From Clostridium sp. (GTDB lineage Bacteria; Bacillota; Clostridia; Clostridiales; Clostridiaceae): a stretch of 64,000 bases of DNA. Each line of letters begins with the position of its first letter. Positions within the stretch are counted from its first letter, which is position 1. Positions 5,895 to 16,332 of this stretch are shown piece after piece. The notes beneath the pieces were generated by a model, which was not told the origin of the DNA, made no database searches, and saw only the letters and a list, made by a program, of their open reading frames with translations. The stretch lies in assembly GCF_022482905.1 (NCBI RefSeq), contig NZ_JAKVOI010000001.1, positions 1,365,958 to 1,429,957 of the forward strand. The letters are read 5' to 3'. The position numbers and the translations under genes are program-made.

Positions 5895-5978
5895 GTAGTC
5901 ATCCCACCTCTGAATTTTAGACTCCTATTTAAATATTCTACACTCTTTTATTATTTCCTTTTCTGCAAAACATAAATA

Positions 5979-6008
5979 AACTGTCCCATAACAAACTTTG
6001 AGACAGTT
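5979..6008 (-). terminator. Probable terminator of the catabolic operon
   Basis: Inverted repeat AACTGTC/GACAGTT (5979-5985, 6002-6008), followed on the minus strand by TATTTATGTTTT. It lies about 75 bases past the stop of the last island gene and just before the ftsK leader, so it marks the downstream end of the island. Confidence 0.6.
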
Positions 6009-6084
6009 CACTTTTATAAACACTAATCAGTACAAAAAATTATAGCAGTAATTGTAAAATATATCAATACCCTATATTCATATA

Positions 6085-7251
6085 TTATCTTGTTCTTGCA
6101 TTTCCTGTAAAGGAATCTATAGGTAAAAATCTGTCAAACCTCAATTGGCTGATATCTGCTCCCAAAGGCTCCCCCAACACCATTTCACTTAATATTTTGC
6201 CTATGGGTGCACTGATTCCAAAACCATGTCCGCTAAATCCACAGGCTGCATATAGACCTGGAACGCCTTCTATTTGACCAATACAGGTAGTGTCATCCGG
6301 GGTCCTGTCATGCCACCCGCTCCAGGAGCGTACAATCTTAATCTTTGCAAGGCCGGGGAACAATTGTACCAAGCCTTTTGCCCCAGAAGGAATATTGTTT
6401 GGTGTCAGCCTTTTCTCCACATAAGTTCCTTCTCTTGCAAAGGCGCCAATTGTACTTCCTGCTCCAAATACCAGAGAACCATGCTCGGTCTGGTGTCCAT
6501 AATAACCTGCATTGGATGAAATAAAAATTTCATCAATAAATCTCGGTACCGGTTCCGTTACAAACACTTCACATAGTGCATGGGTGAATGGAATGTCAAA
6601 ATCCACTGTATTCAGCAATTCACGGCTTCCATAACAAGCTGCCACAATAATGTTGTCCGCCTCATAAATATGTCCCTGGTTTGTAATGATTCTCCTTGCC
6701 TTTCCTCTTACAAGATCAATTATCTCCGCCTTTTCATGATCATAGAATTTTGCCCCCAGCTCCCTGGCTTTTGAATACAGCTTCAGAGTTGTCTTCAATG
6801 GATTTGCCCTACCTTCCTCCGCACAGTAGGATGATCCAACAATTTTATCGGAAAACTCAGGTACTCTTCTTCTAAGTTCACTTCCATCGATGAACTCTAG
6901 ATGCATACCATACTTTTCAGCATGAGGGATAAAAGTCTCCATTTTTTTCATTTCCTCATTTGTTACGGCATTTCTAAAGCCACCTGTGGTTTTGTACTCA
7001 ATGCCGCCAAGCTCCTCTTCAAGCCGGGGCCATATATCTGTAACACCATACATTGCAACAGAAAGTTCAGGTACTCCCCTGAAATTCATTTTATTCAGTC
7101 CACCGTTACGTGTAGATGAACCATTCCCCACGGTTTCTTTCTCAAGTACAGTCACAGAAAGCCCCTTTCGGGCTAAAAAATATGCCGCTGCATTACCCAC
7201 AGAACCGCTGCCTACTATGATTACATCAGATTTAATTACTTCATTGTTCAT
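6085..7251 (-). CDS. FAD-dependent amino-acid oxidoreductase (DadA/HcnC/OoxB-like)
   Basis: A 388-aa flavoprotein of the D-amino-acid oxidase (DAO) fold. The N-terminal dinucleotide-binding motif GSGSVG (residues 14-19) is followed by VTVLEKE, and the C-terminal FAD contact is in AACGFSGHGFGISAPIGK. This family oxidises the C-N bond of secondary or primary amines (glycine, sarcosine, D-amino acids, proline, opines). With the three iron-sulfur/flavin genes directly upstream it matches the catalytic beta subunit of heteromeric dehydrogenases such as proline dehydrogenase, octopine/nopaline oxidase or hydrogen cyanide synthase. The substrate cannot be read from the sequence. It is the last gene of the island operon, 14 bases after the small iron-sulfur gene. 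Confidence 0.8.
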   Translation of the reverse strand: MNNEVIKSDVIIVGSGSVGNAAAYFLARKGLSVTVLEKETVGNGSSTRNGGLNKMNFRGVPELSVAMYGVTDIWPRLEEELGGIEYKTTGGFRNAVTNEEMKKMETFIPHAEKYGMHLEFIDGSELRRRVPEFSDKIVGSSYCAEEGRANPLKTTLKLYSKARELGAKFYDHEKAEIIDLVRGKARRIITNQGHIYEADNIIVAACYGSRELLNTVDFDIPFTHALCEVFVTEPVPRFIDEIFISSNAGYYGHQTEHGSLVFGAGSTIGAFAREGTYVEKRLTPNNIPSGAKGLVQLFPGLAKIKIVRSWSGWHDRTPDDTTCIGQIEGVPGLYAACGFSGHGFGISAPIGKILSEMVLGEPLGADISQLRFDRFLPIDSFTGNARTR

Positions 7252-7265
7252 TTTTAACCCTCCTC

Positions 7266-7589
7266 TTATTCACGATAATCCGCATAAATTTTAGCCATTA
7301 CAGGTCTTGCCGGTGGTCTTGATGTCGTCTCCTCCAATTCTGTTGGTTTGATTTTCAACTCTTTTGCAACAATGTCCCTGACAATTCTCTCACAGGTCAA
7401 TCCCTGACACAATCCCATTCCAGCTCTCAAATATCTTTTGATCTCATTCAACGTAAGCATGCCATCATAAATTGCCTTTCTAATTTCACCTTTTGTAATC
7501 TCCTCACAGCGGCAGATAATTAAATCATCGTCCTTATGAGGCTCGAATTCTCCCAATGGCTTTATACGATCAATACTCCTGCTTTCCAT
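7266..7589 (-). CDS. Small BFD-type [2Fe-2S] protein
   Basis: A 107-aa protein with the bacterioferritin-associated-ferredoxin-like pattern: CxC in LIICRCEEI near residue 27, and CxxxxC in GLCQGLTCERIV near residues 60-65. This domain normally holds a [2Fe-2S] cluster and, in opine-oxidase and proline-dehydrogenase complexes, is often fused to the C-terminus of the alpha subunit. Here it is a separate gene between the two flavoproteins, with gaps of 13-14 bases on each side. The likely role is electron transfer within the complex. Confidence 0.78.
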   Translation of the reverse strand: MESRSIDRIKPLGEFEPHKDDDLIICRCEEITKGEIRKAIYDGMLTLNEIKRYLRAGMGLCQGLTCERIVRDIVAKELKIKPTELEETTSRPPARPVMAKIYADYRE

Positions 7590-7602
7590 AAATTATACCT
7601 CC

Positions 7603-9171
7603 CTATTTCTTAAAAAATCTTGCACTTCCTGACAGCTCTTTTGGTACCTTGATAGTTAAGAGAACCGTCTTGTCAAATGCTTCCGATTTCTTAATATCAA
7701 TGACCTCCGCTTCTCCAACCACTTTACCTCTGCGGTCAAGGGCGCTTCCCCTGTCACCTACTGACGGCAGCGGTAAAAACTCATAAGGCAGTGTCACCGT
7801 TGCAAAACCATCACCGCAGTCATCATCTACAAGAAAAATGGCCTGACCCGAGCAGGATGCAACGCACATACCACAGTTCCTACAATCTTTGTCATCATCT
7901 ACCGCCGGGAGGGCAGTAATCTTGTCGCCTATTTTGATACATCCAAATTTACAGGCATCCTGGCATGGGTTGCAGGGTATATTCTGTGTACACTCAATTA
8001 CAGGATGAATTCCGGATTTTTTCGTTACACCAGGATACTGATCAATTTCTGTCTCATCAATGTATCCATTTTTAAGCAGAAACTGCGATATGCCGTATCC
8101 TTCATCAGTTTGAGCCAAATCCGTCCTGCCTCTATTTTCACGGGAAAACATACCCTGTCTCAATTGTTCAATGGAATTAGAATACTTTATGTACTCCTGT
8201 TCAAATTCTTTTTCTTCTATATATTTTCCATATTTGGCAGCCGCAAGCCCTGCAATATGTCCATTTATCATGGCAGAACTTGCCTCTTCAATTCCTGCCA
8301 CATCACCGGCAGCAAATATTCCAGGTATAGAAGTACAGCCATATTTGTCACACACAGGTACAAGTCCACCTCTGTCCTCCATTTTCACTCCAGTCATCCT
8401 CACCAACTGACTCATAGGATTGAGACCAACTGCCACGCATATAGTATCTATATCAAAATGTTTTTCAGTTCCCGGAATTATATTCCATGTTTTATCCACT
8501 TCACCAATGGTAACACCAGTAACCTTGTCAGTGCCCTCCGCCTTGACAATAGTATGGGACAAATAGAAATTCACTCCCGTCCTTGACAATTTAGAAGCAT
8601 GTACCCCATATCCGCCAATTCTTGGTGCAGCATCAATAACTCCAACCAATTCACATCCGGCCTGCAAAAGCTGAAAGCCAACTACCAATCCCACATTTCC
8701 GGAACCAACCATAAGAATTCTTTTGCCGGGGCACACACCGTGAAGATTAATCATTGTCTGTGCAGCACCTGCTCCAATTACTCCAGGAATTGTCCATCCT
8801 TCAAAGGGAATCATTCTTTCTGAAGCCCCGGTGGCAACAACAATACTATTTGCTTTACAAGTCTCTATATGATCTTCTTTCATGACACTCACAGTTTTCT
8901 CGGGGAAAATTCCTATAACCGGTGAATTCAAATTTACTTCTACACCACAATCCCGGGCCTCTTCAAGAAGTTCTTTTCCTATGTTAATACCTCTGACCTT
9001 TGCCTTATGTTCTTTTGAACCGAAGAATTTATGAATTTGTTTAAAAAGCTGGCCTCCTGGTTTTGCATTCTCATCAAAGACAACGGTACTCATGCCTTTT
9101 TTTGCACCTTCCACTGCTGCACACAGACCTGCGGGACCAGCACCAATTACTACCAAATCATATCTTTTCAT
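7603..9171 (-). CDS. FAD/NAD(P)-binding oxidoreductase subunit with ferredoxin domain (HcnB/OoxA-like)
   Basis: A 522-aa alpha-type subunit. It has an N-terminal FAD motif GAGPAG (residues 10-15), a central nucleotide-binding GSGNVG, and the FAD-binding FAAGDVAG of the pyridine-nucleotide-disulfide fold. Cysteine-rich segments follow: one irregular group in CTQNIPCNPCQDACKFGC and one classical CxxCxxCxxxC group in CRNCGMCVASC, suggesting two [4Fe-4S] clusters. The ferredoxin insertion distinguishes it from the basic HcnB type and suggests electrons leave to a low-potential carrier in an anaerobe. It probably works with the DAO subunit and the two [2Fe-2S] proteins beside it. Only three bases separate it from the upstream [2Fe-2S] gene. 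Confidence 0.8.
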   Translation of the reverse strand: MKRYDLVVIGAGPAGLCAAVEGAKKGMSTVVFDENAKPGGQLFKQIHKFFGSKEHKAKVRGINIGKELLEEARDCGVEVNLNSPVIGIFPEKTVSVMKEDHIETCKANSIVVATGASERMIPFEGWTIPGVIGAGAAQTMINLHGVCPGKRILMVGSGNVGLVVGFQLLQAGCELVGVIDAAPRIGGYGVHASKLSRTGVNFYLSHTIVKAEGTDKVTGVTIGEVDKTWNIIPGTEKHFDIDTICVAVGLNPMSQLVRMTGVKMEDRGGLVPVCDKYGCTSIPGIFAAGDVAGIEEASSAMINGHIAGLAAAKYGKYIEEKEFEQEYIKYSNSIEQLRQGMFSRENRGRTDLAQTDEGYGISQFLLKNGYIDETEIDQYPGVTKKSGIHPVIECTQNIPCNPCQDACKFGCIKIGDKITALPAVDDDKDCRNCGMCVASCSGQAIFLVDDDCGDGFATVTLPYEFLPLPSVGDRGSALDRRGKVVGEAEVIDIKKSEAFDKTVLLTIKVPKELSGSARFFKK

Positions 9172-9174
9172 CTC

Positions 9175-9486
9175 TCATGCCTCCTTTGCTTTCAGTCCAT
9201 ATTGTGTCTGTACTTTCATTCCCTCTTTTAATGGAGTGATACATGTTCGGACATTGATCTCACCATCCACTACCATTACACAGTCTGTACATCTTCCAAT
9301 GGCACAAAACACCCCACGTGCTGTCCCTTTTTTTCTCGTATGTCTATGGGTCAATATTCCTGCAGCCATAAGTGCTGATGCAATAGGTTCATCTTCATAT
9401 CCTTCCATCTCTTTACCGTCAAAGTAGAACTTTATCTTCTTCCCTTTCTCATATTTTCCTAAGACAGGATGTTCTAATATCCTCAT
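9175..9486 (-). CDS. HcnA-like [2Fe-2S] ferredoxin subunit
   Basis: A 103-aa protein of the Fer2_4 type. The cluster ligands follow C-x4-C-x2-C-x11-C in GVFCAIGRCTDC...TC, and there is a beta-rich N-terminus (KIKFYFDGKEMEGYEDEPI). Such proteins are the small gamma subunit of heterotetrameric sarcosine oxidase-like, hydrogen cyanide synthase-like and proline dehydrogenase-like complexes. I start at the ATG (9484-9486), eight bases after AGGAG; a GTG three codons upstream overlaps the ribosome site. It is the first of the four oxidoreductase genes and follows the alcohol dehydrogenase by 28 bases. Confidence 0.8.
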   Translation of the reverse strand: MRILEHPVLGKYEKGKKIKFYFDGKEMEGYEDEPIASALMAAGILTHRHTRKKGTARGVFCAIGRCTDCVMVVDGEINVRTCITPLKEGMKVQTQYGLKAKEA

Positions 9487-9514
9487 ATTATTCACTCCTC
9501 TTTATCTTTCTTGT

Positions 9515-10666
9515 TTAATACAATCTCTCATAAATTTTTATCATATCTTCTACCGTAACATCTTTTCTGGTATTTGAAGGACTTCCACTGTCAAAAGCAT
9601 CTTTCGCCATCTTTTCAATGACTTTAAAAAACTCCTTTTTCTCTATACCGTATTGGTTCATATTCGGTACTTCGCATATATTGCAGATCTCATCAAGCTT
9701 GTCAATAAATATCTTTCCAGCTGTCATATCCTCATCTTCATCTCGGGCAGCTCCAATTGCTCTGGCCAATTGGGCAAACCTGTCATAAGCCCCGTCCAAT
9801 GCAAATGACATACATTCCTTCAACAGTATTGCATTTGAAATACCATGGGGTATGTGAAAAAGTGCACCAATCGGGCGGCTCATTCCATGGACAATTGTTA
9901 CAGAGGAATTATTAAAACTGATGCCTGCTTCAAGGGCGGCTATTGCCATTTCTTCACGGGCTTTTTCATTTTGTGTATCTTTATAGACAATGGGAAGATA
10001 TTCAAAAATACGCTTTACTGCTGATATGGCAAAACTGTCTGTCAGCGGAAATGCCTTTTTAGAGGTATAGGCTTCTACTGCATGGGTAAGTGCATCCAGA
10101 CCTGTAGCAGCTGTAACATTCTTTGGTGATGAATAAGAAAATTTGGGATCTACAATTGCAAGTGCCGGTATTAAAACCTTTCCTTTAAGCAGCATCTTTA
10201 TATCATTTTTCGTATCTGAAACAATTGTAAACTGTGTTGCTTCCGAACCGGTTCCGGCCGTAGTCGGAATAGCCGCAACCGGAGGAAGTGGATTTTCAAT
10301 TGTCTTGCCATTATAATCCGATATTCTTCCTTCATTAGTTGCCATTGCACCAATTGCTTTTGCCGCATCCAGCGGACTTCCTCCACCAAAACCTATAATG
10401 AAATCACATTTTTTTTCATTGTAAATATCAAGCCCTCTATAAATCATTTTATCTGTGGGTTCTGAAACAATTTCCGAATATACAGCAGAGCCTACTCCAT
10501 TTTTCTTCAGCATATCTATAAGAATCTTTACATTTCCCTGTTTAAGCATGGATTTTCCTGTCACAATCAATGCCTTTTTTCCCATGCGGCATAAATCCAA
10601 TTCACTCATTTTCAGTGCATCTTTTCCTAAAATTATTTTCCCTGGTGTTGTAAATTGATTTGCCAT
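9515..10666 (-). CDS. Iron-containing alcohol dehydrogenase, candidate sulfoacetaldehyde reductase
   Basis: A 383-aa group III alcohol dehydrogenase that would interconvert an aldehyde and an alcohol with NAD(H). Visible are the dinucleotide motif GGGSPLD (residues 94-100) and the four metal ligands expected for the family: Asp191, His195, His260 and His274. The position after HGMS, often His, is Arg264 (HGMSRP). The next gene upstream is a class III aminotransferase similar to taurine aminotransferases. That pairing is known from clostridial taurine assimilation, where the reductase makes isethionate, so sulfoacetaldehyde is my leading but unproven substrate. The start ATG has GGAGG seven bases upstream; this Shine-Dalgarno sequence lies just after the stop of the aminotransferase. 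Confidence 0.82.
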   Translation of the reverse strand: MANQFTTPGKIILGKDALKMSELDLCRMGKKALIVTGKSMLKQGNVKILIDMLKKNGVGSAVYSEIVSEPTDKMIYRGLDIYNEKKCDFIIGFGGGSPLDAAKAIGAMATNEGRISDYNGKTIENPLPPVAAIPTTAGTGSEATQFTIVSDTKNDIKMLLKGKVLIPALAIVDPKFSYSSPKNVTAATGLDALTHAVEAYTSKKAFPLTDSFAISAVKRIFEYLPIVYKDTQNEKAREEMAIAALEAGISFNNSSVTIVHGMSRPIGALFHIPHGISNAILLKECMSFALDGAYDRFAQLARAIGAARDEDEDMTAGKIFIDKLDEICNICEVPNMNQYGIEKKEFFKVIEKMAKDAFDSGSPSNTRKDVTVEDMIKIYERLY

Positions 10667-10680
10667 TATCAATTCCTCCA

Positions 10681-12009
10681 TTAAATAAATTCTTTATCAA
10701 CTACATACAAAACAGAATCTAATTTTTTCAGTTCTTCCAGCAGCTGTTCTTCGGTAATAATGAGAGGAGGTGAGACAAAAATCATATTTTCATGGGAGTA
10801 TGTCATAAATTTCTTTGCTTTTAACATCCCAATTATCTTGCCCATAATTCCCTCCGTATCTTTTCCATAAGGAACAAGTGGTTCCTTCGTCTTTTTATCT
10901 TTTACAAGTTCTACTGCAGAAAAAAGTCCGATTGACCTTATATCACCAATGCACGGATGTCCATCTTTCATTTTCAAGAGCTCTTCTTTTAAGACAGCGC
11001 CTACCTTATTTACATTTTCCAGAATATGTGCCTTCTTATAATAATTTACGCATGCAACTCCTGCTGCACAAGCCAATGGATGTCCACTATAAGTCAACCC
11101 GCAGGATAATAAATGGTCGTCAAAATATTCTGCAATTTCTTTGCTTACTGCGCAGCCTCCCAGCTGCACATATCCGCAGGTGACTCCTTTCGCAAAGGAT
11201 ACAATATCCGGTTTTACATCAAAATTTTCAAAGGCGAACATTTTCCCGGTTCTTCCCCATCCTGCCATAACCTCATCACAGATCATCATGATACCAAATT
11301 CATCACAAATCTTGCGAACGCCGGGCAAATAGTTTTTTGGTGGAATAATAATACCGTTGGAGCCCGTAATTGTCTCCATTACAATTGCTGCCACACTGTC
11401 CGGCCCTTCATAAATTACCTGTTCCCTCAACTTGTCAACATAGTATTGTCCTGCTGCTTCTTCAGATTCAAATTTTATTTTTTCCCTGTATACATAGGGA
11501 TCAAAGAACTTGACAAATCCGGGTATTCCAGGCTCTAGCGGATATCTCCTCGGTTCTCCCGTCAGGTTTCCTGCTCCGAAGGAGGAACCATGGTAACTTC
11601 TGTAACGGCTGAACACTTTATTTCTTCCCGTATACATTCTTGCCATCTTAATGGCATTTTCATTGGCATCTGCACCTGCATTTGTAAAAAAGACTTTGCC
11701 CATGTTGTCCGGCATCAGGTCGATAATCATCTTTGCAAGAACTGCCCTTGGTTCAGAGCCATAACTAGGTGCAATGTAGCACAATTTGTCAACCTGGGCC
11801 TTGATGGCATCTCCAATATCTTTATTTCCAAACCCCACATTCAGATTTACCAGCTGCGAGGACATATCCGTATACCGGTTCCCCTGATGGTCCCACATGT
11901 AAATTCCTTCTGCCCTTTCAATTACTATCGGATTCAATCCTCTCTGCTTGCTCCATGACTGCAAATTGTACTTCAATAATGTTTCTTTGATTTTCTCTTC
12001 TGTTGTCAT
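10681..12009 (-). CDS. Class III (omega) aminotransferase, taurine:2-oxoglutarate type candidate
   Basis: A 442-aa PLP-dependent fold-type I aminotransferase. It shows the SSQLVNLNVGFGN N-terminal segment, the GEPRRYPLEPGIPGFVKFF region, the PLP-pyridine aspartate in ICDEVMAGWGRTGK (Asp245), and the Schiff-base lysine in SFAKGVTCGY (Lys274). These segments resemble, from memory, taurine:2-oxoglutarate aminotransferase (Toa) of clostridia and bifidobacteria; beta-alanine, GABA and other omega-amines are alternatives. With the adjacent Fe-type reductase it could move an amino group to 2-oxoglutarate and hand the aldehyde on for reduction. The ATG at 12009 has AAGGAG eight bases upstream; a GTG three codons earlier is rejected. 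Confidence 0.8.
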   Translation of the reverse strand: MTTEEKIKETLLKYNLQSWSKQRGLNPIVIERAEGIYMWDHQGNRYTDMSSQLVNLNVGFGNKDIGDAIKAQVDKLCYIAPSYGSEPRAVLAKMIIDLMPDNMGKVFFTNAGADANENAIKMARMYTGRNKVFSRYRSYHGSSFGAGNLTGEPRRYPLEPGIPGFVKFFDPYVYREKIKFESEEAAGQYYVDKLREQVIYEGPDSVAAIVMETITGSNGIIIPPKNYLPGVRKICDEFGIMMICDEVMAGWGRTGKMFAFENFDVKPDIVSFAKGVTCGYVQLGGCAVSKEIAEYFDDHLLSCGLTYSGHPLACAAGVACVNYYKKAHILENVNKVGAVLKEELLKMKDGHPCIGDIRSIGLFSAVELVKDKKTKEPLVPYGKDTEGIMGKIIGMLKAKKFMTYSHENMIFVSPPLIITEEQLLEELKKLDSVLYVVDKEFI

Positions 12010-12076
12010 ATGAATCACTCCTTAATTTTTACAAAAACTTTATGATAATATTTTTATACATATACGCTGTAATAAT

Positions 12077-12790
12077 TTATCTCTTCTCTATCATCCTAAA
12101 CCTGTCCTCAGCATATTTAATAATTCTTGACAATGGTATAACAATAATTAAATAAGCCACCGCGAGAATAGTATAAGATTCTATAGTTAGAAACGTCTGT
12201 GAAGAAAATGTAGTTGCCTTCAATAGTAATTCCGGTACTGATATATAAGCTAACAAAGATGTATCTTTAACAATAGTTGCCAAATAGTTGCCAAATACCG
12301 GAATTGAATTTCGAAAAGCCTGTGGTAAAATAATCCGTATTAGTGTTTCCCAATTGCTGTAGCCCAAAGCCAGGGCTGCTTCTTTTTGTCCATAATCAAT
12401 ACTCAATATGGCAGAACGTATTACCTCCGACAGCAGGCATCCATAATTGAGTGCAAGACCCAGAGTCCCTGCTGCAACTGCCGGCAGTTTCACTGTATAA
12501 TTTATTCCAATTACCTGAATAAATATAGAGAGAATAAGTGGTATTACATAGTACATATATACCAGCTGAACCAACAATGGAGTTCCTCTGATAATTTCAA
12601 TTAAAACTGTCAATATTGCTTTTATAGATTTAAATCTGCTGATTCTTCCCAGTGCAATTACAAGTCCCAGTAACATTGCCAATACAAATGATAATATCGT
12701 CACCTCTAACACAATAAAGAATGCACTCATTAATTCAGGTGCCAATCCCTGTGTTGCTCTGGCGAAGTCCAAATTGCTTAAAGCTTGCAT
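12077..12790 (-). CDS. Polar amino-acid ABC transporter permease
   Basis: A 237-aa HisM/GlnP-type permease with about five membrane helices and the cytoplasmic coupling segment EAALALGYSNWETLIRIILPQAFRNSIP, which contains the conserved EAA loop. It would form the membrane channel of an importer with the ATPase and lipoprotein encoded just upstream. Gene order is binding protein, ATPase, permease, then the catabolic enzymes, so the transporter is probably the entry route for the island's substrate. GGAG lies seven bases upstream of the ATG. Confidence 0.9.
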   Translation of the reverse strand: MQALSNLDFARATQGLAPELMSAFFIVLEVTILSFVLAMLLGLVIALGRISRFKSIKAILTVLIEIIRGTPLLVQLVYMYYVIPLILSIFIQVIGINYTVKLPAVAAGTLGLALNYGCLLSEVIRSAILSIDYGQKEAALALGYSNWETLIRIILPQAFRNSIPVFGNYLATIVKDTSLLAYISVPELLLKATTFSSQTFLTIESYTILAVAYLIIVIPLSRIIKYAEDRFRMIEKR

Positions 12791-12832
12791 CTCATCACTC
12801 CTGTCACATATTTTTATAAAGAAATTGCTGTA

Positions 12833-13561
12833 TTAGTTGTTTATTATTCTCGATAAAAATTGCTTTGTCCGCTCATTCTTCGGATTATTAAAAATCTCTT
12901 CCGGTATACCTTCTTCTACAATATATCCTTTATCCATAAAAATCACTCTATTTGCAACATCCCTTGCAAATGTCATCTCATGTGTAACGACTACCATGGT
13001 CATCCCTTCTTCTGCCAACTGCTTCATAACTGCAAGTACATCTCCTACCAGTTCCGGATCAAGAGCAGAAGTAGGTTCATCAAACAATAAAATATCAGGT
13101 TCCATAGCTAGTGCCCTTGCTATTGCAACTCTCTGCTGCTGGCCTCCAGATAAAACATTTGGATAAACATCGGCTTTATCCGCCAGTCCCACTTTATCCA
13201 GCAATTCCATTGCCTTGTCAACTGCTTCCTTCTTCTTTTTCTTTTTAGTCACAATAGGTGCCTCTATAATATTCTGCAATACCGTCTTTAATGGAAATAA
13301 GTTGAACCTTTGAAATACCATGCCCACTTTCTTTCTCAATTCTCTCACGCTAACAGATTTATCCAATATATTTTTACCCTCACAGTACATTTCGCCGCAG
13401 TTAGGGATTTCAAGCAAATTCATACATCTAAGGAAGGTACTCTTACCTGAGCCTGAGGGGCCAATAATACAGACTACCTCTCCCTTGCTAATTGTTAAGT
13501 TTATATTTTTCAAGACTTCTAAATCTCCAAAACTCTTTGCTAAATTATTCACTTTAAACAT
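12833..13561 (-). CDS. Polar amino-acid ABC transporter ATPase (GlnQ-like)
   Basis: A 242-aa nucleotide-binding subunit that powers import. Walker A is GPSGSGKST (residues 34-42), the ABC signature is [15 protein letters not shown], Walker B is [14 protein letters not shown] and the switch histidine is in VVVTHEM. The length and motifs match the GlnQ/HisP family for polar amino acids and related zwitterions. A lysine run (KKKKKKE) near residue 110 is a local oddity. Upstream, a strong hairpin separates it from the binding-protein gene and probably reduces its expression relative to the lipoprotein. Confidence 0.92.
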
Positions 13562-13584
13562 GCATTTCTCATTCCTTTCCTATA

Positions 13585-13620
13585 TTCCATACGATATGGG
13601 GACAGTTATATCGTATGGAA
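13585..13620 (-). other. Intercistronic 13-bp hairpin between binding protein and ATPase genes
   Basis: A perfect 13-bp inverted repeat, TTCCATACGATAT (13585-13597) and ATATCGTATGGAA (13608-13620), with a ten-base loop. No U-tract follows on the minus strand; the ATPase ribosome site comes next. Such structures between a binding-protein gene and the other transporter genes commonly protect the upstream message and so raise lipoprotein output. Confidence 0.75.
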
Positions 13621-13630
13621 ATCATTCTTC

Positions 13631-14506
13631 TTAAGGATTTACTGTCTGTCCTTCCTTGACACCTACAAAATATTCTTCTGTCAAGCCATATTTTTTGAGG
13701 ATTTTCATAACAGTACCATCTTCTTTCAACTCATCCAGTGCCTTATTCCACTCTGAAGCAAACTTCTTGTCATCAAGGGGTAATGCTGCACCAATCATAC
13801 CGGAATATTTCATTTCATATGGAGAAAGCATCTTTGCCTTAATGCTCTTGTCTTGTGACAGCTTGTATGCAATAGCAACATTATCAACCATAACAGCATC
13901 TACTTTTTTAGAGGAAAGAGCTAAAAGTGCATCATTAATAGATGGATAAGTCTGTATATTTTTCATATATCCTTCTTTGACGTATTCCTCGGCTACTTTC
14001 ACAAAGCCACTTCCCTGCTGCACTGCAATAGTAGCATTTTTAAAATCCTTCAAACTCTTGAATCCTGCATCCTGTGAAAACAATATGGCTTCTCCTTCTT
14101 TATAGTACACATTACTAAACAGTGCTGCCTTTTGTCTTTCCTTGGTAATATACATGGCAGATGAAACGACATCACAATTACCGTTTTTTAATTCAAGCAA
14201 TAGGCTATTAAATGTTGCCTGCACAAACTGCACCTTATTAATCCCTAATTTTTTGGCAATAGCTGTTGTAATCTCTGCATCCACTCCTTTATATTGTTTT
14301 GTATCTACATCAATAAAACCAAATGGGGCAGTTCCAGTGCCTGCTACAACAATATAGCCTCTCTCTTTAATTTTTTTCAGTGTTTCAGACTCGCCACTAT
14401 TTGTATTGCTCTTTGAATCATTGCCAGCAGTTGAACATCCTCCCAGAATAGTCATGGATAAAACAAATGCCAACATCAATACTGTAATTTTCTTAAATTT
14501 GTTCAT
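13631..14506 (-). CDS. Amino-acid-binding lipoprotein of the ABC importer
   Basis: A 291-aa extracytoplasmic solute-binding protein of family 3. It has a lipoprotein signal peptide: basic MNKFKK, a hydrophobic core and lipobox LGGC with Cys24 as the lipidation site, followed by a Ser/Asn-rich tether. The mature part has the two-lobed pattern of glutamine/cystine-type binding proteins (for example GTAPFGFIDVDTKQYKGVDAEI). It is the first gene of the island operon, with GGGAGG seven bases before its ATG. The ligand is probably zwitterionic but is not identified. Confidence 0.9.
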   Translation of the reverse strand: MNKFKKITVLMLAFVLSMTILGGCSTAGNDSKSNTNSGESETLKKIKERGYIVVAGTGTAPFGFIDVDTKQYKGVDAEITTAIAKKLGINKVQFVQATFNSLLLELKNGNCDVVSSAMYITKERQKAALFSNVYYKEGEAILFSQDAGFKSLKDFKNATIAVQQGSGFVKVAEEYVKEGYMKNIQTYPSINDALLALSSKKVDAVMVDNVAIAYKLSQDKSIKAKMLSPYEMKYSGMIGAALPLDDKKFASEWNKALDELKEDGTVMKILKKYGLTEEYFVGVKEGQTVNP

Positions 14507-14573
14507 TACTTTTCCTCCCTTGTATAATCTTTAATTTTCTTTAATATACTCACTTATTTTTAGATTTTTAAAA

Positions 14574-14601
14574 TTGACAAAATAAAATTTATGGATATAA
14601 T
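14574..14601 (+). promoter_or_regulatory. Plus-strand sigma-A promoter with no protein gene downstream
   Basis: TTGACA (14574-14579), a 16-base spacer and TATAAT (14596-14601), both boxes perfect. Transcription would begin near 14608 and run toward the 3' end of the PucR-type gene, which is on the opposite strand. No ribosome site with an open frame of useful length follows. Confidence 0.5.
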
Positions 14602-14607
14602 TTATAT

Positions 14608-14957
14608 TTGTAAGATATACTGGAATTTTGATTCGGTCCGTATAAACAAAGTGTATATTATGGAAATACGTTTGGCAGTGGATTTTCATAATAGGTAAAG
14701 TACCTTAACTTTATGTGTTTTAGGATCGTCTTCTCTATTCCTGGTTTATGTCAAAATAATGTAATCTAAAAAACAAGTGGATAATCTATATTTAAAAAAT
14801 TGATTATCAAATACAGTAAATGCTTGTAGATTATTAATTTATTGCTATGTTATTTGTGAAATTATTAAATAACATGTATATAATTTATCATATTATAATA
14901 GGAATTCATATGTCCACCGTGTACAAATATATATTGTCATATTTGTGCACACTTTTA
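14608..14957 (+). ncRNA. Candidate intergenic small RNA
   Basis: The region runs from the perfect plus-strand promoter to a 12-bp stem with one mismatch (14919-14930, 14939-14950), which is followed on the plus strand by ACTTTTATAT, so it could act as a terminator. Two further perfect stems lie inside. This would make a transcript of about 350 nt, divergent from the island operon. It is inference from promoter, structures and lack of coding; chance in AT-rich DNA is possible. Confidence 0.3.
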
Positions 14958-14968
14958 TATAAATATAA

Positions 14969-16219
14969 TTAATTTCTAATTCTCAATAGTCTTAAAAATA
15001 TGCCTATTCTCATGGAAAGTTTTATATTAAATACAGTTTCTTCATTTTTTAAATCGCAGTCCAGTATTTCCTCTATCCTTTTGATCCTGTATTTCATTGT
15101 ATTTCTATGCAAATATAATTCTTCAGCGGTATTTCCCAAATTTCTATTATTTTTTAAATAGGCATCCAACGTTTTAACTAAATTTGAAGAATTTTTTTCA
15201 TCATATTCCTTTAGCTTCATCAAATTTTCATCAAATAATCTTCTCATCTCTTTATATGAATTCATTTCAAAAAATAATCTGAATACACCAAGATCTTTAT
15301 AATTTACAATACAATTATTCCTACTAAATTTCTTTGCTATCTCAAGTGACTTTCTCGCCTCCAAAATAACAGTTTTAAATTTTCCCAGCTCTTTACACAT
15401 TCCTCCTATTCCTATACTTACCGTAATAGGTTTCGATTTTTCGTTGATTTCAGCTTTTATGGACTCTGCAATATGTATCATTTTACTTTCAACTGTATTA
15501 TCATCTGCGCTTTTTTCATCCTTGTCCAAAGATACCATTATAAAAAAGGCATCACTTTGAACAACGCAAAAATATTTTCTGTTATTTTTATGTATTACTC
15601 CTTCAATAATAGCCTGAATTCTGCTTTTTATTTCAACAATAGTATTTTCATCATACAGCTCATTGCTTTTTAAAAATAAATTAAAATCATCAATATCAAC
15701 TACCAGTGCACAATAATATGCATCTACATTATATCCATATAAAATAGCTCTGTTTAATATTTCATCAGTAATATCTATATTCTCAAAAATTATTTCCTTC
15801 ATAAAATTATTCATGAACTGTTTTTGAGCATTCTTAGTAAAAATTGTCCTGCAGATATTTTGAGTTACATCTATAAGCCTTACCTGAAATGGCAATTCAA
15901 ATATGGGGAAGTCAATCTTATTTGCAAGTTCTATTACTTTTTCAGGTGTTGATTTTATATAGGGTCCTACATTTATAACGAGTCCGGACAGTTTTCTCAT
16001 ATTTATATCATTAACAAATTTAAGCAGTTTCTCAACATTGTCTCCTATAGCAATACCTGTTATAAACAGAAGTTCTCCCCCTTTTACATAGTTGACCGCA
16101 TCCGGTATTTCAATTACATGAACCCAGCTGATTATCCTGTCCAGTCCGCCGCTTCCCGCTACTATTTTCATTTCTTCAAGTCCAGGAAGATTCAATATAC
16201 TTCTGCAGGTTACAAACAT
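14969..16219 (-). CDS. PucR-family transcriptional regulator
   Basis: A 416-aa regulator. The N-terminal PucR domain begins with LNLPGLEEMKIVAGSGGLDRIISWVHVIEIPD-like sequence, conserved in purine- and amino-acid-catabolism activators. A central GGDEF-like region with no catalytic motif follows, and a C-terminal PucR helix-turn-helix contains NTAEELYLHRNTMKYRIKRIEEIL. I start at the ATG at 16219, nine bases after GGAG; two earlier in-frame ATGs overlap that site. It is encoded directly upstream of the transporter-catabolic operon in the same direction and probably activates it in response to the substrate. The effector is unknown. Confidence 0.88.
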   Translation of the reverse strand: MFVTCRSILNLPGLEEMKIVAGSGGLDRIISWVHVIEIPDAVNYVKGGELLFITGIAIGDNVEKLLKFVNDINMRKLSGLVINVGPYIKSTPEKVIELANKIDFPIFELPFQVRLIDVTQNICRTIFTKNAQKQFMNNFMKEIIFENIDITDEILNRAILYGYNVDAYYCALVVDIDDFNLFLKSNELYDENTIVEIKSRIQAIIEGVIHKNNRKYFCVVQSDAFFIMVSLDKDEKSADDNTVESKMIHIAESIKAEINEKSKPITVSIGIGGMCKELGKFKTVILEARKSLEIAKKFSRNNCIVNYKDLGVFRLFFEMNSYKEMRRLFDENLMKLKEYDEKNSSNLVKTLDAYLKNNRNLGNTAEELYLHRNTMKYRIKRIEEILDCDLKNEETVFNIKLSMRIGIFLRLLRIRN

Positions 16220-16299
16220 ATTATTCATCTCCATAAAAAATTATGTATGTTAATTTTAATATTAATACCTGTTGAATATTATTAATTATATAAAATAAA

Positions 16300-16332
16300 G
16301 TACTATTTTATTATAATATAACAAAATAGTAC
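16300..16332 (-). terminator. Terminator downstream of tepA
   Basis: Ten-bp inverted repeat GTACTATTTT/AAAATAGTAC (16300-16309, 16323-16332), followed on the minus strand by TTTATTTTAT. It ends the tepA transcript before the PucR-type gene and forms the upstream border of the island. Confidence 0.6.

Follow-up and report, generated by a model that had tools for sequence, protein, structure and literature searches.

A ten-gene island inserted between tepA and ftsK in a Clostridium species, a candidate module for the catabolism of an N-substituted beta-alanine

A ten-gene island was analyzed in a 64,000-nucleotide stretch of Clostridium sp. DNA (the window; assembly GCF_022482905.1, contig NZ_JAKVOI010000001.1, positions 1,365,958 to 1,429,957), where ten intact open reading frames (ORFs), all on the minus strand, fill the interval from ftsK (5894) to tepA (16349). 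In the direction of transcription, the first gene encodes a PucR-family regulator (14969..16234; PucR N-terminal, GGDEF_2-like and HTH_30 domains in Pfam). It is followed by an importer of the polar amino acid type, namely an extracellular solute-binding lipoprotein (SBP) of family 3 (13631..14506; Pfam SBP_bac_3), an ATP-binding cassette (ABC) transporter ATPase (12833..13561; NCBIfam and Pfam) and an ABC transporter permease of the HEQRo three-transmembrane family (12077..12790; TIGR01726, above cut-off). Next come a class-III aminotransferase resembling PydD (beta-alanine:2-oxoglutarate type; 10681..12018; NF004718, above cut-off) and an Fe-type alcohol dehydrogenase (Fe-ADH; 9515..10681; Pfam Fe-ADH) resembling PydE, the malonic semialdehyde reductase. 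Four flavin/iron-sulfur genes complete the string: a small [2Fe-2S] subunit (9175..9495; Fer2_4 by Pfam and motif, like the gamma subunit of OpnDH/HypDH), an alpha subunit with a flavin adenine dinucleotide (FAD)/Pyr_redox_2 domain and a C-terminal Cys-rich part carrying two 4Fe-4S-like motifs (7603..9171; Pfam and motifs), a BFD-like [2Fe-2S] subunit in a gene of its own (7266..7589; Pfam Fer2_BFD and SO_alpha_A3), and a catalytic beta subunit of the DAO family, secondary-amine dehydrogenase type (6085..7251; DAO domain). From SBP to DAO the intergenic gaps range from -1 to 69 bp, forming an operon-like string, and the PucR gene is separated from the SBP gene by 462 bp.

The description of the island in the original prediction, as a self-contained and co-directional module with a terminator on each side, was borne out. 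Besides the ten intact ORFs, two terminator-like hairpins with T-rich tails were found on the minus strand, one after tepA (16300..16332, -12.7 kcal/mol) and one after the DAO gene (5974..6013, -16.1 kcal/mol). A consensus scan names neither of them; the loop of the hairpin after the DAO gene has 10 bases, and the limit of the scan is 8. An Rfam search of the window gave no match.

The same prediction had placed the island within a conserved clostridial gene string, and the comparison with genus-mates agrees with this. The search for tepA covered 13 genomes of the genus, the present one included, and found the gene in all of them; in the other 12 of 12 genomes it is directly followed by ftsK. 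The result by which the original prediction said it would be refuted, the island genes at this locus in all close relatives, was thus not obtained. Nor was a counterpart of the DAO gene above 46% identity found in the 12 other genomes. In addition, the stretch preceding ftsK (GGAAA...TGTAGAAT) is common to 7 of 7 printed genus-mates and is retained in the window after the island. Because tepA and ftsK are adjacent in all 12 other genomes, the block is an insertion at the tepA-ftsK locus in this species. The alternative, a loss in all 12 other genomes, is less simple. From its patchy spread (see below), the island may be of horizontal origin.

The nature of the aminotransferase/Fe-ADH pair was approached through the neighborhoods of its relatives. 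Eight loci contain an aminotransferase at least 73% identical to that of the island (L031, L032 and L092-L097; a further module, L059, was found by another route and left out of this count). Dihydropyrimidinase is encoded in the fetched stretch of all eight, PydA in seven and PydC in six, with the L031 locus being truncated by a contig end. In seven of the eight (L032 counted) there is also an Fe-ADH at least 55% identical to that of L032, and the Fe-ADH of L097 is 36% identical to another Pyd-linked Fe-ADH. Between the island pair and that of the same-family Pyd clusters L031 and L032, the identities are 76-80% for the aminotransferase and 56-58% for the Fe-ADH. The ABC transporters of these two loci were considered as taurine transporters, a reading given up when the adjacent genes were recognized as those of dihydropyrimidinase, PydA and a ureidopropionase-type amidohydrolase. 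Within the genus, the aminotransferase relatives (62-66% identity, eight genomes) lie in Pyd clusters in 8/8 cases. Across all identities, Pyd genes were found in 19 of the 22 aminotransferase neighborhoods fetched, the Pyd labels of L033, L034, L036-L039, L041 and L049 having been confirmed.

The trees point in the same direction. The aminotransferase/Fe-ADH pairs of the window and of L059 fall with the Pyd-linked pairs (support values of 96/94 and 100/100 for the smaller trees and of 86/93 for the larger one), and the Fe-ADH of the window groups with those of L031, L032 and L059 at 100/100. In the larger aminotransferase tree L098 was wrongly labelled Pyd; it is not among the rows of the residue comparison. 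That comparison involved 19 Pyd-linked rows and 3 Toa rows, of which two owe their label solely to kinship or context, and in 7 of the 7 aminotransferase columns separating the two sides both the window and L059 go with Pyd. As for the Fe-ADH, the substrate residues Phe252, Thr257 and Phe265 of the sulfoacetaldehyde reductase TauF correspond to Phe, Val and Arg in the window. The alanine mutant of Phe265 in TauF is nearly inactive (PMC6616044). All 3 TauF rows have Phe at this position. Of the 17 Pyd-linked rows, 16 have Arg and one, L097, has Tyr; the window and L059 share the Arg. The Thr257 position is a weaker separator, with Val in the window and L059 and either Val or Thr in the Pyd rows. 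An Arg in the Fe-ADH pocket would suit an aldehyde bearing a carboxylate, such as malonic semialdehyde. As the closest aminotransferases (at least 73%) sit in Pyd clusters in eight of eight cases, the pair is read as being of the PydD/PydE (beta-alanine) type, a predicted assignment to which context, tree and residues all contribute.

Such an assignment disfavors the taurine-side substrates named in the original prediction. Under that account, the island would degrade taurine or a derivative (N-methyltaurine, tauropine): the dehydrogenase would free taurine, the aminotransferase would convert it to sulfoacetaldehyde, and the Fe-ADH would reduce this to isethionate. It was also favored at first in our own analysis, from the match of the aminotransferase to its best solved structure, taurine:2-oxoglutarate aminotransferase 6jix. 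Moreover, TauF of Bifidobacterium is itself an Fe-ADH, one aminotransferase relative (64%, L040) sits in a Tau cluster, and the Toa-TauF-TauABC system of Bifidobacterium kashiwanohense likewise combines a class-III aminotransferase, an Fe-ADH and an ABC importer. However, 6jix is simply the nearest solved structure, and the island enzymes are on the Pyd side by tree and residues. The window Fe-ADH matches TauF at 4e-48, whereas that of the Tau-linked L040 matches TauF (6jko) at 6e-143. The importer also differs, belonging to family 3 rather than to the NMT1/OpuAC type of L040. Finally, the genome carrying L059 (G437, see below) has, apart from its island-type module, a separate cluster of Toa (73%), TauF (67%) and TauABC, with TauB in two ORFs; the module is therefore unlikely to serve taurine. 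On the Pyd neighborhoods, tree, residues and this separate cluster, taurine was dropped, and we regard it as highly improbable.

The Pyd pathway, an extended form of which, with nitrogen release from beta-alanine, is reportedly the subject of a 2019 paper in the Journal of Biological Chemistry, is thus the closest known system for this part of the island. It differs in that PydA, PydB and PydC are all absent from the ten island genes, so the beta-alanine must come from elsewhere. No dihydropyrimidinase (PydB) was found in this genome at E<=1e-60, PydA and PydC having been searched for within the window only; the PydDE-like pair would therefore be fed by something else. Across the genus, the dihydropyrimidinase search gave some match in 10 of 13 genomes, eight of which have a match of at least 82% beside the aminotransferase. 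The island regulator also resembles that of these clusters: its identity to the PucR encoded beside the Pyd genes is 62-68% in 8/8 genus-mates having such a cluster, and only 25-32% to the other PucRs among the loci compared. Judging from these sequences, the island PucR and those of the Pyd clusters may sense a common signal near beta-alanine.

A source of beta-alanine could be the product of the four flavin/iron-sulfur genes. The Fer2 subunit carries the motif C-x4-C-x2-C-x12-C at residue 64, and the BFD motif C-x-C-x32-C-x4-C lies on a separate protein of 107 amino acids. In the alpha subunit, Cys 394, 400, 403, 407 and 411 and Cys 430, 433, 436 and 440 are invariant in 7 aligned sequences; Pfam gave no Fer4 match there despite the 4Fe-4S-like motifs. 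Flavin-containing opine dehydrogenase (OpnDH) is defined by a DAO beta subunit with GxGxxG and R-x-W, an FAD alpha subunit and a Fer2 gamma subunit with C-x4-C-x2-C-x11/12-C (PMC4575208). All of these are present in the island complex, and the second [2Fe-2S] motif of OpnDH (C-x-C-x15-20-C-x4-C inside alpha) is not. The flavin opine dehydrogenases (OdhABC and NoxAB/OoxAB of Pseudomonas, Bradyrhizobium and Agrobacterium) thus share with it the DAO beta, the FAD alpha, the small Fer2 subunit, a BFD-like cluster and R-x-W, and the octopine operon likewise has ABC opine permease genes. In the island, however, the BFD is a separate gene, and the alpha subunit has its extra Cys-rich 4Fe-4S-like part. 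A plasmid search with the DAO protein returned 1,533 records, every best place being below 60% identity; Rhizobium, Agrobacterium and Sinorhizobium were the commonest genera (674/1,533), and the 30 matches listed, all from proteobacteria, were at 29-32%.

By sequence and by model, the best match of the DAO protein is the L-proline dehydrogenase 1y56_B, with sarcosine oxidase beta also among the nearest; opine dehydrogenase and iminodiacetate oxidase are included in the model matches as well. The archaeal dye-linked L-proline dehydrogenase occurs as two complex types, one of them with four polypeptides as in the island. This likeness is one of fold and sequence; the operon context of the island points to beta-alanine, not to proline. 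The four genes are accordingly predicted, as a class defined by fold and sequence, to encode an opine/L-proline dehydrogenase-type complex.

To look for the set in other genomes, contigs from 84,980 species, each represented by a single genome, were scanned with six exact 8-residue patterns, an approach that may miss relatives. Four loci with a DAO at 68-77% were obtained (L057, L058, L059 and L060, the last one a DAO fragment). The most similar is L059, from an Anaerostipes metagenome-assembled genome (G437), where a PucR-family gene is followed by aminotransferase (77% identity to the island), Fe-ADH (57%), Fer2 (76%), alpha (76%, as two ORFs), BFD (68%) and DAO (77%) genes, and then by an SBP gene interrupted by a frame change. 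The six-gene core from aminotransferase to DAO is in the same order in the window and in L059, with the SBP gene at the opposite end of the string in the window. The search for the same set elsewhere, which the original prediction had proposed, thus succeeded for this core plus the broken SBP gene, and did not for the ABC ATPase and permease.

The dehydrogenase is rare. With only the best four or five candidates per genome being scored in the large samples, a DAO match was found in 1 of 391 genomes of the class at E<=1e-100 (the present one). Within the Anaerostipes family, 397 genomes gave two matches (G437 at 79% and G509 at 45%), and within the family that includes G435, 349 genomes gave two (G435 and G436). 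Among the 11 genomes of the genus to which G437 belongs, 7 have a match at E<=1e-80, G437 alone above 46%, and among the 13 of the present genus, 5 have one at E<=1e-50, again only the present genome above 46%. At the level of at least 68% identity this leaves 1/391, 1/397, 2/349, 1/11 and 1/13, every count consisting of genomes already known to have it. An aminotransferase match at E<=1e-150 occurs in all five genomes with a DAO of at least 68% (the present one and four others, one with the DAO fragment), compared with 12 of 391 genomes of the class sample, the present one included. This co-occurrence is suggestive.

Taking these lines together, we consider it, on balance, probable that the island is a horizontally assembled catabolic module for an N-substituted beta-alanine, i.e., a secondary amine bearing an alpha-carboxylate as well as a beta-alanine arm. 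The family-3 ABC importer would take up the compound, for instance beta-alanopine, N-(1-carboxyethyl)-beta-alanine. The four-subunit dehydrogenase (DAO beta, FAD alpha, Fer2 and BFD) would then oxidize its C-N bond, and hydrolysis of the imine would release beta-alanine and a keto compound, while the iron-sulfur relay would pass the electrons on to ferredoxin or NAD. The nitrogen of beta-alanine would then be transferred to 2-oxoglutarate by the PydD-like aminotransferase, yielding malonic semialdehyde, which the PydE-like Fe-ADH would reduce to 3-hydroxypropionate with NAD(P)H. Oxidation and reduction would roughly balance, and, in a Stickland-like manner, both nitrogen and a keto acid would become available to the anaerobe, under the control of a PucR regulator of the type found at the pyrimidine-degradation clusters of the genus. 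The host is probably a strict anaerobe, as its clostridial kin suggest. The fixed gene order and the presence of four redox genes would be explained by an opine-class enzyme that frees beta-alanine and is followed by PydD and PydE. In this form, the original idea of uptake, amine oxidation, transamination and aldehyde reduction of one amine is supported, and beta-alanine, listed there as a substrate, would instead be a likely intermediate, set free as the amine when a larger molecule is cleaved after import.

What is imported, into which products it is cleaved, which acceptor takes the electrons, how the operon is regulated and what the enzymes do are all inferred, and the name of the substrate is the weakest link. 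Beta-alanopine would be the simplest natural fit; marine invertebrates have dehydrogenases for it (PMC4575208). The importer bears on the class of molecule. It has the features of a family-3 polar amino acid importer, i.e., an SBP_bac_3 protein with the Arg and Asp and a matching ATPase and permease. Arg124 (IT.ER motif) and Asp208 (VDAV..D motif) of the SBP are aligned with an Arg and an Asp of AncQR, an ancestral amino-acid-binding protein. These two residues hold the ligand in such proteins, and they weakly favor a molecule with an alpha-amino-acid head, its alpha-carboxylate beside the amine. This touches a reading that overlaps with the preferred one and differs solely in the leaving group, in which a non-opine secondary amine with a beta-alanine arm (N-methyl-beta-alanine, N-carboxymethyl-beta-alanine, fructosyl-beta-alanine or putreanine) is degraded. 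The presence of sarcosine oxidase and iminodiacetate oxidase beside opine dehydrogenase among the DAO fold relatives speaks for it, and the Arg and Asp of the SBP speak, weakly, against it; we consider it distinctly unlikely.

Several observations weigh against the N-substituted beta-alanine module as proposed. Three aminotransferase relatives (61-64%), none in the set of at least 73%, lie outside Pyd clusters, these being L040, with its Tau cluster, and L050 and L098 (61-62%), which have neither Pyd nor Tau genes in the stretch fetched. In L059 the importer is incomplete, as the SBP gene is interrupted and no ABC ATPase or permease is seen. In G435, G436 and G438 the aminotransferase gene is not located near the dehydrogenase; the three matches fall in a single clade, and two of the genomes (G435 and G436) are from the same family. 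The co-occurrence of the two enzymes is therefore not independent evidence. The same kind of dehydrogenase is present in two further settings of the own genome (L045 and L048) and, in L057 and L058, adjoins a sodium/solute symporter, in a stretch that lacks PydDE (the L057 contig ends 1.4 kb past the DAO gene). Given this variety of settings, the family alone names no substrate, and the symporter setting also fits a simpler one.

Such a simpler substrate is the basis of a further reading, according to which the dehydrogenase oxidizes an ordinary amino acid (L-proline, a D-amino acid, sarcosine or an N-methyl compound) and supplies only electrons or nitrogen, while PydDE acts on free beta-alanine coming from import or from synthesis elsewhere. 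The relatedness of the DAO protein to L-proline dehydrogenase and sarcosine oxidase beta speaks for it, as do the symporters of L057 and L058, whose model matches, all below cut-off, include the proline symporter PutP. It leaves unexplained, however, the tight order aminotransferase-Fe-ADH-Fer2-alpha-BFD-DAO in two genera (window and L059), and is held to be unlikely, though a serious contender.

Within the open-licence literature searched, no paper with this gene set was found, and it represents a new combination of known kinds, in which the beta-alanine tail of pyrimidine degradation is decoupled from the pyrimidine genes and joined to an opine-dehydrogenase-type front end. If the preferred reading is true, it predicts N-substituted beta-alanines as a substrate class, compounds which to our knowledge are not known as food for anaerobes, and it gives a function to a rare flavin/iron-sulfur complex in Clostridia. 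It would also advise caution against calling such aminotransferase/Fe-ADH pairs taurine genes from the nearest solved structure. A more specific version, which we put forward only tentatively and consider rather doubtful, is a novel anaerobic beta-alanine-opine route, with an opine-type flavin dehydrogenase, an added 4Fe-4S relay and a PydD-PydE tail in a self-balancing, Stickland-like fermentation to 3-hydroxypropionate.

Some further settings of these enzymes were observed. In the own genome, L048 (G000:C1:1857000-1876000; kin in G004, L046) is a second, distant kit of like make-up, with a family-3-like ABC importer, an Fe-ADH, a class-III aminotransferase (PRK08117 type), D-2-hydroxyacid dehydrogenase-like and RidA-like genes, a four-subunit flavin dehydrogenase and a PRK07475 protein, presumably racemase-like; it possibly acts on another opine-type substrate. 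A third four-subunit flavin dehydrogenase, kept in G012 (L044), is encoded at L045 (G000:C1:678000-697000). It is accompanied by a PotABCD-type importer and two ornithine-cyclodeaminase-like genes (PRK06199); an amidohydrolase and a PII-like protein were also recognized there by eye. In L113 (G509), two four-subunit dehydrogenase sets lie in tandem after a PucR gene; after them come two Fe-ADH genes as well as what, by eye, look like an aldehyde dehydrogenase and an NCS1-like permease. In L059, too, further genes of the Fe-ADH, aldehyde dehydrogenase and NCS1-like permease types occur close to the complex, those of the latter two types having in part been recognized by eye. Separate genes encode the FAD part and the Cys-rich part of the alpha subunit in L059 (8074-9645), L046, L047 and L113; in the window, L045, L057 and L058 the two parts are fused. 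PydD-like aminotransferases at L080, L082 and L083 (G435, G438) adjoin either a SauS-like acylating aldehyde dehydrogenase or a gene resembling that of methylmalonyl-CoA decarboxylase alpha, assignments that are all below the family cut-offs; an energy-yielding beta-alanine route via malonyl-CoA is possible in this setting.

The G+C content of the island is 37.6%, compared with 35.3% for the rest of the window, and that of the PucR gene is 29.5%. The difference was not taken as a sign of transfer, since 10-kb windows vary by 1.4 points. Lastly, the gap between the PucR and SBP genes contains, on the plus strand, a perfect TTGACA-16-TATAAT (14574-14601 of the window) pointing to the 3' end of the PucR gene, and, on the same strand, a hairpin with a T-rich tail (14919-14950). 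Together, the promoter match and the hairpin could delimit a short divergent transcript.

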